From NCBI RefSeq assembly GCF_000429125.1, contig NZ_KE386850.1:21940-85939 (forward strand): a stretch of DNA of 64,000 bases, in the 5' to 3' direction. The notes under the pieces were generated by a model. It searched no databases, had not been told where the DNA came from, and saw only the letters and a list, made by a program, of their open reading frames with translations. A program made the translations under genes and the position numbers. Positions 1 to 4,855 of this stretch are shown piece by piece. The stretch is from Aequorivita capsosiphonis DSM 23843. Its GTDB lineage: Bacteria > Bacteroidota > Bacteroidia > Flavobacteriales > Flavobacteriaceae. Within the stretch, counting starts at the first letter, position 1. Every line of letters starts with the position of its first letter.

Positions 1-31
1 TTCTTCATAATGTGTAAAAATTTAAAGTTAA

Positions 32-69
32 TAAATAAATAGCGGGGGCCGGCCCCCGCTATTTATTTA
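32..69. repeat. Perfect 38-nt palindrome downstream of cas2
   Basis: Two 19-nt arms meet at 50/51 with no spacer; the core is GC-rich (agcgggggcc and its complement) and the outer arms are AT-rich. Imperfect complementarity continues outward with small bulges to about 5-86. It sits 37 nt beyond the cas2 stop, so it could terminate the cas operon or form a cruciform. There is no adjacent T-run on the cas strand, and it does not resemble the repeat predicted from the tracrRNA. Confidence 0.7.
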
Positions 70-105
70 ACTTACACACTTTATGAGATAGTCCCTTTTT
101 TTGTT

Positions 106-435
106 TTAAAACAGTTCTAATTGTGCAGGTGGCGGCTCTTTGGGCACTGCGGTCTTGCCCCAAAAATTCATTATATTGCCAAACTGTTTATCGGTAATTC
201 TTAAAATACTCACTTTTCCAAGTGGCGGTAATTGCCTATAAACTCTTTTTTCGTGTACATCTGCACTTTCACTGCTTGCACAATGTCTTATATAAACGGA
301 ATATTGCATCATGGCATATCCATCTTTTAAAAGGTTTTTTCTAAAAAGTCCAGCATTGCGTCTATCTTTTTTTGTTTCGGTTGGTAAGTCAAAAAATACA
401 AATAACCACATAATCCTATAGGCATTTAATTCCAT
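106..435 (-). CDS. cas2: CRISPR-associated endonuclease Cas2 (type II)
   Basis: Cas2 forms the central dimer of the Cas1-Cas2 integrase that inserts new spacers into the array. The 109-aa product is normal for a type II Cas2. The ferredoxin-like first strand reads MWLFVFFDLP near residues 9-18, with the conserved Asp, followed by the basic helix KKDRRNAGLFRKNLLKDG. It overlaps the 3' end of cas1 by 10 nt on the same strand, so the two are translationally coupled. The usual effector gene cas9 upstream of cas1 is missing, so this is an adaptation module without its own effector. The array normally found downstream of cas2 would lie left of position 1. Confidence 0.95.
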   Translation of the reverse strand: MELNAYRIMWLFVFFDLPTETKKDRRNAGLFRKNLLKDGYAMMQYSVYIRHCASSESADVHEKRVYRQLPPLGKVSILRITDKQFGNIMNFWGKTAVPKEPPPAQLELF

Positions 436-1310
436 AATTTTGGATAGCTAATTTTCTTTGCAGTACCATTATAACATTGCTGTAGAGAAGTTGTAGTTCT
501 AGTAATTGCGACCATCAACGGGCTTTTGGTTGTTTTGAAATATACTGTTTCCGTAAGTATACCCAGCAATGCCAGTTTGATATCTGTGGTAAGCTCCTTT
601 TCTTTAAAGTCGATCATTATCTGCAATACCTTTGCATCCACTATTGGTCTATAAGGCTCCATAATATCGTCTGCCAAACAGAATGCATTGTATTTATTGT
701 GATGATGTATTCCCAAAGTGCAAAGGAGTCCGCTTGCCGCAAGGGAGCGCGCTACCGCGGCTCTCAAAATTATATAGCCGTAATTTAGAAAGGAGTTTGG
801 GTATTCGCCAAAACGTTCTCTTTTGAAATCGAAATCAAAGATATGTTTCCAATAATGTGCAGCTGCAGCACCTTCACGGTTATCGGTGTCACCGCTCAAT
901 ACTTTTGATTCGTGAAATTTCATTACTTCAAAAGATTTGTCTGATTTTTTCAAAAGTTGGGCTTGGTACTTTATTTTCCTTTTTATTATTTGTTGCCACA
1001 ACTGTTTTTTTAAAGGTTCGGAAGCTTTTATTTGGTTGCTAAACAATTTTTGTTGGGTGTGATGTCCTTCCAGATTTAAAAGCATGCTTGAGGGCATGTG
1101 TTTGGCATCGCAAAAAATCACTGCCACATTATTATCAATAAGTTTATTTAAAGCGGGAATGGAAATATAGATTTCTTGGTTTTCGATCACGACAAACCCG
1201 ACATCCTCAATGGGAACAGTTTTTTCTCCAGTTTCAATCTTGACCACTAATTGCTCCCATTTTGTGGTAATGGATGTTTTGTTGGTAAAAAAGAGTGTTC
1301 GTTTTAACAT
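426..1310 (-). CDS. cas1: CRISPR-associated endonuclease Cas1 (type II-C)
   Basis: Cas1 is the metal-dependent integrase subunit that joins prespacers to the CRISPR array. I place the start at the Met of MLKRTLFF because type II Cas1 proteins usually begin M-[IL]-K-R-T; an in-frame ATG six codons earlier (1328) is also possible and directly abuts a TAA that may be the old cas9 stop. Numbered from that upstream Met, the metal ligands look intact: Glu in DNREGAAAAHYW (about residue 152), His in GIHHHNKYN (about 208-210) and Asp in CLADD (about 220). Length matches the family. It overlaps cas2. The protein appears functional although cas9 has been lost upstream. Confidence 0.95.
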   Translation of the reverse strand: MLKRTLFFTNKTSITTKWEQLVVKIETGEKTVPIEDVGFVVIENQEIYISIPALNKLIDNNVAVIFCDAKHMPSSMLLNLEGHHTQQKLFSNQIKASEPLKKQLWQQIIKRKIKYQAQLLKKSDKSFEVMKFHESKVLSGDTDNREGAAAAHYWKHIFDFDFKRERFGEYPNSFLNYGYIILRAAVARSLAASGLLCTLGIHHHNKYNAFCLADDIMEPYRPIVDAKVLQIMIDFKEKELTTDIKLALLGILTETVYFKTTKSPLMVAITRTTTSLQQCYNGTAKKISYPKLWN

Positions 1311-1328
1311 GCCAGCAAATTTTTCCAT

Positions 1329-1411
1329 TTACAAAAAAGTAACTTCTTTGTTTTGTATGGGATGTGTCTATAAAGGTTAGTCCCCAAATCCAATCCTAAA
1401 ATTCGTTTCAT
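1329..1411 (-). pseudogene. cas9: cas9 remnant: first 12 codons only
   Basis: Reading the minus strand from an ATG at 1411-1409 gives MKRILGLDLGTN, the start of a type II-C Cas9 up to the catalytic RuvC-I Asp; intact homologues continue with SIGWA. Here the sequence departs at about 1375 and only about 45 nt remain before the cas1 ATG at 1328. A different frame in that stretch ends KEVTFL followed by TAA immediately before the ATG, which could be the old Cas9 C-terminus. The reading in the starting frame runs into cas1 and stops there. I infer an internal deletion of nearly the whole (normally about 1,400-codon) gene. An assembly join is the alternative explanation. Confidence 0.8.
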
Positions 1412-1466
1412 AATCTTTATGCTTAATTATTTGAAGTTCTAAACTTATAAAAAAATAAATTCATCT

Positions 1467-1486
1467 CTTTACGGAATCCCGTAAAG
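1467..1486. repeat. 8-bp hairpin between cas9 remnant and tracrRNA
   Basis: ctttacgg and ccgtaaag form a perfect 8-bp stem around the loop aatc. It lies between the divergent cas9 start and the tracrRNA promoter, so it may be a leftover of the cas9 leader or a regulatory site. There is no T-run on either side that would make it a clear terminator. Confidence 0.5.
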
Positions 1487-1506
1487 ACCATTAAATATTT
1501 TTTATA

Positions 1507-1605
1507 TATCTTTGGATTACAATTTTGAAAGCAATTCACAATAAGGATTATTCCGTTGTGAAAACATTTAAGCCGCCTCACCTTCCAATGTGGGGCATTT
1601 TTTTT
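1507..1605 (+). ncRNA. Putative type II-C tracrRNA with promoter and terminator
   Basis: TAtcTTTG at 1507-1514 is a perfect Bacteroidetes -7 box. It is followed by attacaattttgaaagcaat (about 1516-1534), whose complement has the feel of flavobacterial type II-C repeats (ttgtgaattgctttcaaaat), so this is the likely anti-repeat. Downstream, cctcac (1576-1581) pairs with gtgggg (1590-1595) and eight Ts follow (1598-1605), the expected tracrRNA tail and rho-independent terminator. The RNA would be about 85 nt. It diverges from the cas genes. Its retention without cas9 is unusual. Confidence 0.8.
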
Positions 1606-1776
1606 GGTTAAATGTTTCACAAGCTCCATAATCTATAATAGATACAGTAACGAGCCAAAACAGTTAGGTTGGTTTTACCACCTACGCTTTAGATTAACGG
1701 AATTCAATTCTCTTTCAGTTTTTAGTTCCTAGAAATCCCAGAAGTTCCATTTTCGGTTTCGATTTCGATTTCATTT

Positions 1777-2580
1777 TCACCCAACCCCCAAAACCCGCAT
1801 CCCCCTAGCATCCTTCATCTCCAACAACTCCCCGTTCACATTCCTATAAAAAACAACCCCAACCGCACTAACCACCGCCACCGCTTGAGGCATAGCATTA
1901 GCTTCAGCCAATCTTAAGCTAAGAGTTACGGACGCAATCATCTTTTGCTTCAAATCAATTGGCTCACTTTCCACAAGGGCGCTAAGGCTTCTGTGTTTTG
2001 GCTCCAAGGGCACATATTTGTTTTCATCTGGGCTGTATTCATAATTACTTACGGTAGCAGCACACAAGATAAACTTAAAGTGGGTAGCCTCTTTGGGCGC
2101 CGTTATTTGTTCCTTAGGCTTTAGGTTAGGAGAGGTCCAAGAAACCTCGTTTCTGCCTGGGTTTAATGTGGCTTTGTTTTTTATACCACCAATGCTATAG
2201 ACCAAAGGCCGGGCATTTACAAATTCAAACCCTTCTAGCAAACTGCCGTTTTTACGTATATCCAGCTTCCGTTGTCCACGAATGCCAGTGCCCAAGCCAA
2301 CAACCAAACGCATCGCGCCACTCAACCTGCCAGAAAAATAGCGATCGCCAAGCTCTTTCTTATTGCGCAAAAAGGCCATCCGCAAAACCTTGGCCGCCAT
2401 ACTTGCCCCGCCAAGTTCCATCATATTGTCCCGCGTACCTTTACTTTTTGGGTGCGTCAAGATGTGATTCTTGCTCACCGTGGCTTTTTGTTTTACGATG
2501 GTTCCCTTTTCGTCCTGGCTAAAGCTCAATCCGCCCATGCTGCCAGATAGTTTAAAAAAATCATTCTTTATCCGTGCCAT
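1777..2580 (-). CDS. Hypothetical protein, DUF6266-like N-terminus
   Basis: The 267-aa product is counted from MARIKNDFF, because this N-terminal pattern (MARIKN..., then a Ser/Gly-rich turn) recurs in Bacteroidetes hypothetical proteins of the DUF6266 type. The longer reading adds 29 hydrophobic residues with no matching pattern and probably is not translated. There is no signal peptide or membrane segment from that start. The middle part (about 120-230) alternates polar and hydrophobic stretches as in beta-rich domains, and a short hydrophobic run (AVAVVSAVGVVFY) lies near the C-terminus. Function is unknown. It stands alone between the CRISPR remnant and about 1 kb of non-coding DNA, a setting compatible with an accessory region. 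The family assignment rests on a motif only. Confidence 0.6.
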   Translation of the reverse strand: MARIKNDFFKLSGSMGGLSFSQDEKGTIVKQKATVSKNHILTHPKSKGTRDNMMELGGASMAAKVLRMAFLRNKKELGDRYFSGRLSGAMRLVVGLGTGIRGQRKLDIRKNGSLLEGFEFVNARPLVYSIGGIKNKATLNPGRNEVSWTSPNLKPKEQITAPKEATHFKFILCAATVSNYEYSPDENKYVPLEPKHRSLSALVESEPIDLKQKMIASVTLSLRLAEANAMPQAVAVVSAVGVVFYRNVNGELLEMKDARGMRVLGVG

Positions 2581-3589
2581 ATCAAAGTTTTTTATAAACC
2601 GACTCGTGTTACAAAATAGCAGCCACAAGCCGATAATGGGTTCAACAACAAATATAAAATCATACACTCAGATCATCGAGATCCTATGTCTAGCAATTGG
2701 GGAGAATAACTTTGGAGATTCAAACGAGCAGATGCAACGTTCTATAATACAACAATTTACTAAAATAACTCAATTTCAGTTGATAAGCAAATCCCAGTTC
2801 CAAAAACACCTAAATATCCCCTCGTCAAACGAAAGGACTAATAGAATAGGAAATTAGTATTTAAAGCCAAAATAAAGCCATTCCTTTTAGAAACAAGAAG
2901 AAGTTAAACTGGAAATATTAAACCCAAGGTAGCGATTTTTACAACTACAGAAATCTCCATAAACACCGGTGGTTTAATAAGACGATAAGGAATCTTTACA
3001 GCAACGAAGGTCCAGGTCAGGTCCGGGTGAGGTGCGGGTAAAGTCCAGATGGGTTAAGGGTGAAATTGCTAAAAAAATGAGGATAATTAAAAAAGCCAAG
3101 TGATTTTGACCATATCTATGATAGAACTACTAATATACAAAAAAATCTAATGTTGAACATCTCACATCTAAAATTTCACCTCTACTCTTCACATTCCCCA
3201 TCCACTCAACAAGTAACCCTCGCTCTCCCAGCAACGCAAGCCTTGATTTAAGTTTTTACATCACAACCGTCTTTGGATTGTATTCCATAGTGCAAAGCCC
3301 ATAGCCCATAGCCTATCTTGGAGATATCAATCCATTCCGGAAGGAGGCTCTAGGCGCGCGATGTAAGCACCAACCCTTCAAAAAAACAGCATAGACAAAA
3401 TGAATGAAATCTTTTTTATGATCTCGATTAAGTTAATTGTTTAGACAACATAGATATAAGCCCATTTTAACCGAAAATTACAAAACCCGCAAAATTTTCC
3501 AACAACTACCGGCTACCGACTACCAACTACCGACTAAAAATAGTACTTTTGCACCCTCAAAATAAATTACATATTACATAAAAATTATC
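2581..3589. other. 1-kb stretch without a recognisable gene
   Basis: No convincing ORF is present on either strand. A G-rich run of short imperfect repeats (ggtccgggtgaggtgcggg and similar) lies at 3006-3060. A second low-complexity run (ctaccgactaccaactaccg) lies at 3508-3535, just before the ppa promoter, and catagcccatagcc repeats near 3298-3315. These look like the decayed simple repeats seen elsewhere in the window. Confidence 0.6.
3544..3551 (+). promoter_or_regulatory. -7 box of ppa
   Basis: TActTTTG matches the Bacteroidetes TAnnTTTG -7 consensus exactly and lies 38 nt before the ppa ATG. No clear TTG -33 element is present at the usual spacing. Confidence 0.5.
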
Positions 3590-4102
3590 ATGAAGAAGAC
3601 ATTCGACGTACTTATAGAAATTCCAAAAGGAAGCCGTAACAAATACGAATACGATTTTGAATTAAAGAAAATCCGTTTTGACCGTATGCTTTTCAGCAGT
3701 ATGATGTATCCAGCTGATTACGGTTTTATACCTGAAACCTACGCCCGCGATGGTGATCCATTAGACGTATTGGTGTTGGGTCACGAGCCTACATTCCCAA
3801 TGTGTGTGATGGAAGTAAAGGCTATTGGTGTTTTCCATATGGAAGATGAAAAAGGACCGGATGAAAAAATTATCTGTGTTCCAGTATCAGACCCAGTTTG
3901 GAACCAATTAGACGACTTACAGGATCTGAACCCGCACTTGATAAAAGAGATTGAACATTTCTTTAAAGTATATAAAGATCTTGAAAAGAAACGCGTAGAT
4001 GTTGGTGGTTGGGGAGATGCAACAGAGGCCATTGAAATTTTTGACCAGTGCATAAAGCGCTATGAAGACACTCCGGAAGTACACGGGCGTTTTAGTATTT
4101 AG
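3590..4102 (+). CDS. ppa: Inorganic pyrophosphatase (soluble, family I)
   Basis: This cytoplasmic enzyme hydrolyses pyrophosphate to phosphate and so pulls biosynthetic reactions forward. The 170-aa length is normal for bacterial family I enzymes. The metal-binding signature DGDPLDVLV is intact at about residues 54-62, with YPADYGFIPET just before it and the downstream K(R)VDVGGW segment that supplies active-site Lys/Arg. The start ATG follows a TAnnTTTG promoter. It is followed about 690 nt later by a membrane-bound pyrophosphatase, so two unrelated PPases are neighbours here. Confidence 0.96.
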   Translation: MKKTFDVLIEIPKGSRNKYEYDFELKKIRFDRMLFSSMMYPADYGFIPETYARDGDPLDVLVLGHEPTFPMCVMEVKAIGVFHMEDEKGPDEKIICVPVSDPVWNQLDDLQDLNPHLIKEIEHFFKVYKDLEKKRVDVGGWGDATEAIEIFDQCIKRYEDTPEVHGRFSI

Positions 4103-4795: not shown

Positions 4796-4855
4796 ATGCA
4801 TTTCCTTATTTTTGGAATCGAAAATTTACAACCAACCCTTAATCTAAAGAAATTT

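Follow-up and report, generated by a model that had tools for sequence, protein, structure and literature searches.

The closest described counterpart of the locus examined here is the II-C system of Flavobacterium psychrophilum CN46. As far as the accessible part of that report goes, in silico evidence indicates that the effector, at a fixed chromosomal place, was swapped for a divergent one; the new cas9 stands in place of the original between the tracrRNA and cas1, with IS elements near (PMC10309648). In Flavobacterium columnare the II-C locus holds cas9, cas1 and cas2, with other genes (parDE) placed between cas9 and the array, and the accessible part of the account mentions no second II-C remnant (PMC8092290). 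A literature search that drew on article text only for these two papers gave no account of the present locus or of an "orphan tracrRNA".

The window, i.e. the whole 64,000-nucleotide stretch of Aequorivita capsosiphonis DSM 23843 that was analyzed, lies on a 295.6-kb contig (C6; window base 1 is C6:21940) of an assembly of 26 contigs with 99.94% completeness. Like F. columnare, this contig has a flavobacterial II-C locus with cas9, cas1 and cas2, and, like CN46, it points to a change of effector at a fixed place. In contrast to CN46 the whole system differs and only the old ends are left; in contrast to the F. columnare account, remains of a second II-C system are present. A II-C system of one type (type A) very probably sits where an earlier II-C system of another type (type B) was, with type B scars at both ends. 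Genomes and loci are designated below by G and L numbers.

Results

Searching 28 genomes of the genus with the window's cas1 gave a match in nine, the window's own included, and none in 19. The window cas1 is 85-90% identical to those of G015, G016, G019 and G023 (type A) vs 49-51% to those of G001, G012, G024 and G025 (type B), G025 holding one weak match in addition. The four type B loci of the genus (L067-L070) have the order tracrRNA, cas9, cas1, cas2, with the three genes on one strand, and retain a full cas9 (1374-1522 aa), cas1 and cas2; arrays of the B repeat were read in G012 and G025. In type A, cas9 faces cas1-cas2. Seven of 16 related cas1 loci show a cas9, which is convergent in six (L010, L011, L013, L014, L017 and L021; cas1 69-88% identical) and co-directional in the seventh (L022; cas1 53%). 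Of the nine without cas9, eight end within 2 kb of cas2 or cut cas1. L010 and L011 are apparently the same as L064 (G023) and L065 (G019), where, among the loci listed, the array lies between cas9 and cas2. The type A loci of the genus and of Lutibacter (L064, L065, L013, L014, L021) share the window's cas1-cas2 family and the convergent cas9, and the repeat agrees where it was read (L063-L065).

In the window, cas2 (106-435, minus strand; Pfam CRISPR_Cas2, 4.2e-16; PADLOC best match Cas2_II) and cas1 (426-1328, minus strand; Pfam Cas_Cas1, 1.8e-25; PADLOC best match Cas1_II, 6.3e-115) are both open. The longest cas1 frame begins at ATG 1328 and the start common to the relatives is ATG 1310 (MLKRT). 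Cas2 is 93-96% identical in amino acids to those of the four type A relatives of the genus, and this type A cas1 is the sole cas1 found in the genome. The repeat search also gave a perfect 19-nt palindrome (32-69) between cas2 and an N gap, possibly a bidirectional terminator hairpin. No Rfam family scored above its curated threshold in window 1-4000, the tracrRNA region included.

To the left of the window lies, on the same contig, an intact, stop-free cas9 (cas9-A; C6:14870-19249, or L007 8871-13250; plus strand) of 1459 aa with Pfam RuvC_III, HNH_4 and Cas9_a matches, and the eight distinct PDB sequences that it matched all carry the name Cas9. In an alignment with 12 other Cas9 proteins, two of them N-terminally truncated, the columns of the RuvC-I, RuvC-II, HNH and RuvC-III motifs hold the expected residues. 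This gene is convergent with the window's cas1-cas2 in the same locus, and no second cas9 was found in the genome. Adjoining its start on the opposite strand is tracrRNA-A (L007 8790-8670), which pairs with the type A repeat of the relatives (-30.4 kcal/mol, z -5.3) and scores z +0.7 with the B repeat; the stretch from tracrRNA-A to the cas9 start is 82-87% identical to L064, L065 and L073. Downstream of cas9-A follow about 600 bp, one CRISPR repeat and then 2,050 Ns that reach window base 1. The readable A array is this one repeat at the gap edge and the place of the array falls within the Ns, which counts against a replacement. The 28-nt core of the A repeat has one copy in the genome, no further A repeat was found outside the gap, and the readable sequence on either side of the gap, back to cas9-A and on to cas2, has no extra frame of at least 80 aa. 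System A is complete to the extent that it is readable.

The remains on the right-hand side belong to another type. On the minus strand at 1376-1411 lie the first 12 codons of a cas9 (MKRILGLDLGTN). They match the four type B cas9 starts of the genus at 35/36, 34/36, 32/36 and 27/36 nt; past codon 12, the next 24 nt have only 4-7 matches to the B genes. The block is also 29/36-32/36 identical to type A cas9 starts and cannot alone separate A from B, so its assignment to type B is based chiefly on the promoter region and the tracrRNA. The latter, tracrRNA-B (about 1506-1605, plus strand), has a -7 box (TATCTTTG, 1507-1514), an anti-repeat and a terminator-like hairpin, and is identical at 95, 92, 82 and 74 of 100 positions to the type B tracrRNAs of G012, G024, G025 and G001. 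It pairs with the B repeat (-36.9 kcal/mol, z -7.0), the repeat held by the arrays of G012 and G025, and lacks pairing with the A repeat (z -1.3). Homology to the B loci begins at window 1370-1376 in three of the four; these resemble the remnant in cas9 start, promoter region and tracrRNA. In G012 it begins at 1492, and the resemblance is in the tracrRNA. The rightward limit of the homology is 1572-1647. The cas9 start of G012, the genome with a B locus at the corresponding place, is the most divergent of the four (27/36), and the alignment to that genome begins only at 1492; both points count against the replacement. The type A relatives differ from the window in this region: no match to tracrRNA-B or the cas9 stub was found upstream of cas1 in L063-L066. 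Nor does a RuvC-I motif occur on the cas1 strand in the stretch of up to 600 bp that precedes cas1 in any of the 16 related loci (L019 offers only 228 bp). With the tracrRNA as query, no B array was found elsewhere in the genome among the 26 of 52 candidates scored; the same query gave 62 matches in G012 and 17 in G025. The tracrRNA-B would now be an orphan that has lost its partner.

The left-hand scar lies to the left of tracrRNA-A. In this relic of a B array (C6:14428-14492), a 30-nt spacer separates a 20-nt B-repeat end, which has two mismatches, from a 15-nt B-repeat start that has none. About 103 nt of other sequence follow, and then a further 22-nt B-repeat piece that differs at one position and ends at C6:14617. 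The second repeat of the relic is thus interrupted and shortened, a point against the replacement. The pattern CTATTCACAG-N{27,33}-TTGTGAATTGCTTT was found at one site in the genome (C6:14438-14492), at 52 in G012 and at 15 in G025; it gave no match in the reversed control or in seven other genomes tried. G024 and G001 are among these seven and have B loci, so the pattern misses some B arrays. The relic is the only trace of B repeats found in the genome, and neither a cas9-B or cas1-B nor a functional type B locus was found. In a separate observation, B repeats (at the array end or in the relic) are split by unrelated sequence both in this genome (L007 8494-8596, about 103 nt) and in G012 (L070 1178-1197, about 20 nt).

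The chromosomal place agrees with that of one type B relative. In the window, ppa is at 3590 and hppA at 4796, and the tracrRNA lies 2 kb upstream of ppa with a 296-aa frame in between. The B locus of G012 also lies upstream of ppa-hppA, at a distance of 2.6 kb that holds a single 315-aa frame, and has the orientation of the window's remains; the orientation of the relic relative to ppa is likewise that of the G012 array. Against the replacement, the B loci of G001, G024 and G025, i.e. three of the four in the genus, lie away from ppa. The MFS transporter on the left flank adjoins a B locus in none of the genomes examined, and the original left edge of B is therefore placed from the array relic alone.

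Homology to type A relatives spans the region from the tracrRNA-A terminator (L007 8671-8674) to the cas1 start (window 1313-1324), cas9 itself being variable. Between this edge and the B remnant lies a 51-nt junction stretch (1325-1375, minus strand) without clear match to A or B relatives. The twelfth cas9 codon is 47 nt from ATG 1328 and 65 nt from ATG 1310 of cas1. These 12 codons and 23 others form a fused 35-codon frame (1304-1411, minus strand) whose stop overlaps cas1 ATG 1310, an arrangement that may couple its translation to that of cas1. In 27 other genomes of the genus, no match to the junction extends left of window 1370. Among 396 other genomes of the family, 384 gave no match at E 1e-6 and 12 match only from window 1375 rightwards, in a search of limited sensitivity that scored two candidates per genome among those listed.

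Upstream of the cas9 remnant and the fused frame lies a palindromic box, TTTACGG-N4-CCGTAAA (1468-1485). All four type A relatives of the genus have the box, with up to two mismatches, 42-70 nt ahead of the predicted cas1 frame. It also stands before cas9 in L068, L137 and L138; L068 is the only one of the four genus B loci to have one, the box being absent within two mismatches from L067, L069 and L070. No box is left close upstream of the window's cas1, and the one at 1468-1485 lies ahead of the fused frame. This arrangement suggests, from sequence features, that cas1-A and cas2-A may now be transcribed from the old cas9-B promoter, behind the 35-codon fused leader frame.

Discussion

The earlier occupant of this place would have been a system B with tracrRNA-B, cas9-B, cas1-B, cas2-B and array-B. 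It would have lost cas9 beyond codon 12, cas1, cas2 and almost the whole array, leaving the tracrRNA, the promoter region and 12 codons on the right and the repeat-spacer-repeat relic on the left. The present occupant would be tracrRNA-A, cas9-A, an array and the convergent cas2-A and cas1-A. System A presumably provides ordinary II-C immunity, in which Cas9-A would cut with tracrRNA-A and a crRNA, and Cas1-Cas2 would add spacers.

A sequence-only reading of the window had taken the locus as a single II-C system in which cas9 alone was deleted internally, with its own cas1, cas2 and tracrRNA kept as an effector-less adaptation module. Within the window the order of remnant cas9, cas1 and cas2 with an upstream tracrRNA does look canonical, and the parts that were named are real: cas1, cas2, the 12-codon cas9 start and the tracrRNA are borne out by Pfam and PADLOC matches, identity to B loci and repeat pairing, and the sudden change after codon 12 and the short gap to cas1 by the loss of identity and the 47 nt to ATG 1328. 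The reading changes because the contig left of the window carries the intact cas9-A. A cas9 was indeed reduced to 12 codons while its tracrRNA stayed; these cas1-cas2 genes, however, which the reading had assigned to the lost cas9, are of another type than the tracrRNA. The module is not effector-less, cas9-A being intact and convergent in the same locus, and the relic of the B array lies beyond the far side of the A module. The cas1 lineage and the intact cas9-A contradict a simple internal deletion, which can now hardly be credited. Nor is there support for adaptation outliving interference; system B lost effector, adaptation genes and almost all of its array. A Cas9 encoded elsewhere, which the reading had allowed as an alternative, is indeed present. 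The genome search that it proposed for a Cas9 and a matching array gave the former as cas9-A and the latter, as a B array, only as one relic; the comparison that it proposed with relatives gave intact B loci in four genomes of the genus, but with cas1 genes only distantly identical to that of the window. An intact cas9 directly adjacent, which it had named as contrary evidence, is nearly what was found, cas9-A lying in the same locus across the array and N gap.

Also very unlikely is that an assembly misjoin set a fragment of a B locus beside the A cas1. The nearby N gap marks a stretch that is hard to assemble; on the other hand, the A module has a B scar on each side, the two being separate and alike in orientation, the right-hand scar lies where G012 has its B locus, and a misjoin should leave cas9-B and cas1-B somewhere in this nearly complete assembly, where they were not found. 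The replacement may have proceeded by a one-step exchange or by arrival beside the B array and later deletion. On the two-step route, which could well have been taken although the balance tips slightly against it, A would have settled beside or inside the B array and coexisted with B until a single deletion removed the rest of array-B, cas2-B, cas1-B and all of cas9-B beyond its first 12 codons. The sides of the junction share no long homology, as an illegitimate deletion would give, and the edges of A homology are the tracrRNA-A terminator and the cas1 start; against this route, A and B cas1 occur together in none of the 28 genomes of the genus.

Two rearrangements within the genome were also considered. 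An inversion between the two cas9 starts, which form a 37-nt inverted repeat of 84% identity, is not favoured as origin or as switch because its product sets cas9-A beside tracrRNA-B, unlike the relatives seen. In the four type A genomes the A module adjoins a histidine-kinase-like gene pair; a move of the module from such a place was rejected, since no convincing A remains are found at the corresponding place, and import of A from another strain seems likelier for the same reason.

The retained head of system B may have been more than left behind. It is somewhat doubtful, if conceivable, that it was captured, the cas9-B promoter, the box and the 35-codon leader controlling the incoming cas1-cas2, while tracrRNA-B is still made and may act without its Cas9; if so, spacer acquisition would be under other control than cas9-A. 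That the head is held by selection, tracrRNA-B or the fused leader frame having gained a new regulatory role, is unlikely. The 95/100 identity of tracrRNA-B to G012, vs 79% for the neighbouring ppa DNA, speaks for such a role, as do the overlap of the fused stop with the cas1 start and the box at 1468 that stands in for the one missing near cas1. However, tracrRNAs may be conserved anyway and the time for decay may be too short, tracrRNA-B fails to pair with the A repeat, the stop-start overlap could be chance and the box occurs in only one of four B loci.

The replacement of B by A adds to signs of exchange inside type A itself. Among the type A loci, tracrRNA and cas1-cas2 are closely related and the repeat is the same wherever it was read, but there are at least three unrelated Cas9 proteins (compared at L007 8871-13250, L064 14855-18238, L065 6787-10167 and L073 660-4520). 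The Cas9 of G015 (1286 aa), linked to its type A locus by inference because it lies on another contig than its cas1, is 39% identical to cas9-A, and those of G019 and G023 (1126-1127 aa) are 30% identical; most other type A Cas9s fall at 30-39%, and that of L013 reaches 71%. DNA identity drops to about 50-60% some 10-20 codons into cas9 and recovers around the last codons, and cas9 therefore seems to be swapped inside a constant frame, as in F. psychrophilum to the extent that the accessible part of the report describes it (PMC10309648). The breakpoint of the window scar, at codon 12, falls in the same conserved cas9-start block.

Very probably, the locus is a clear fossil of the in-place replacement of one CRISPR-Cas9 system by another, scarred at both ends, and it warns that a cas9 stub beside cas1 is no proof that the effector has been lost. 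Taken with the Cas9 swaps in the related type A loci, it suggests an exchange of modules among flavobacterial II-C loci, with one of the breakpoints at the conserved first codons of cas9. An orphan tracrRNA whose partner was lost could serve as a gauge for the decay rate, or for new uses, of such RNAs.

Some minor observations concern related loci. L019 (1121-11127), from an uncultured Lutibacter, carries cas1, cas2 and array-like repeats without a cas9 in the 9.7 kb downstream, and a 439-aa frame beside its array looks transposase-like; it is possibly a case of the effector-less arrangement that had been proposed for the window. The first 36 nt of cas9 are strongly conserved as DNA across genera of the family, with 12 matches of 74-97% over the matched stretch, most of them at least 92% over 36-38 nt. 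In all 11 family loci examined (L136-L146), the block starts a cas9-like frame that stays open through the fetched stretch (510-512 codons).

The palindromic box is also distributed more widely. Besides window 1468-1485, sites were found at L064 7991 and 9870, L068 7165, L073 6538, L137 1499, L150 6827 and L072 6372. The box is missing at some cas loci and is found inside other genes too. In several loci a copy with up to two mismatches stands 42-95 nt ahead of cas1, cas9, an HsdM gene or an HsdR-like gene, and one lies close to the end of a conserved gene adjoining a histidine-kinase-like gene; the box is a candidate for a common operator of defence genes.
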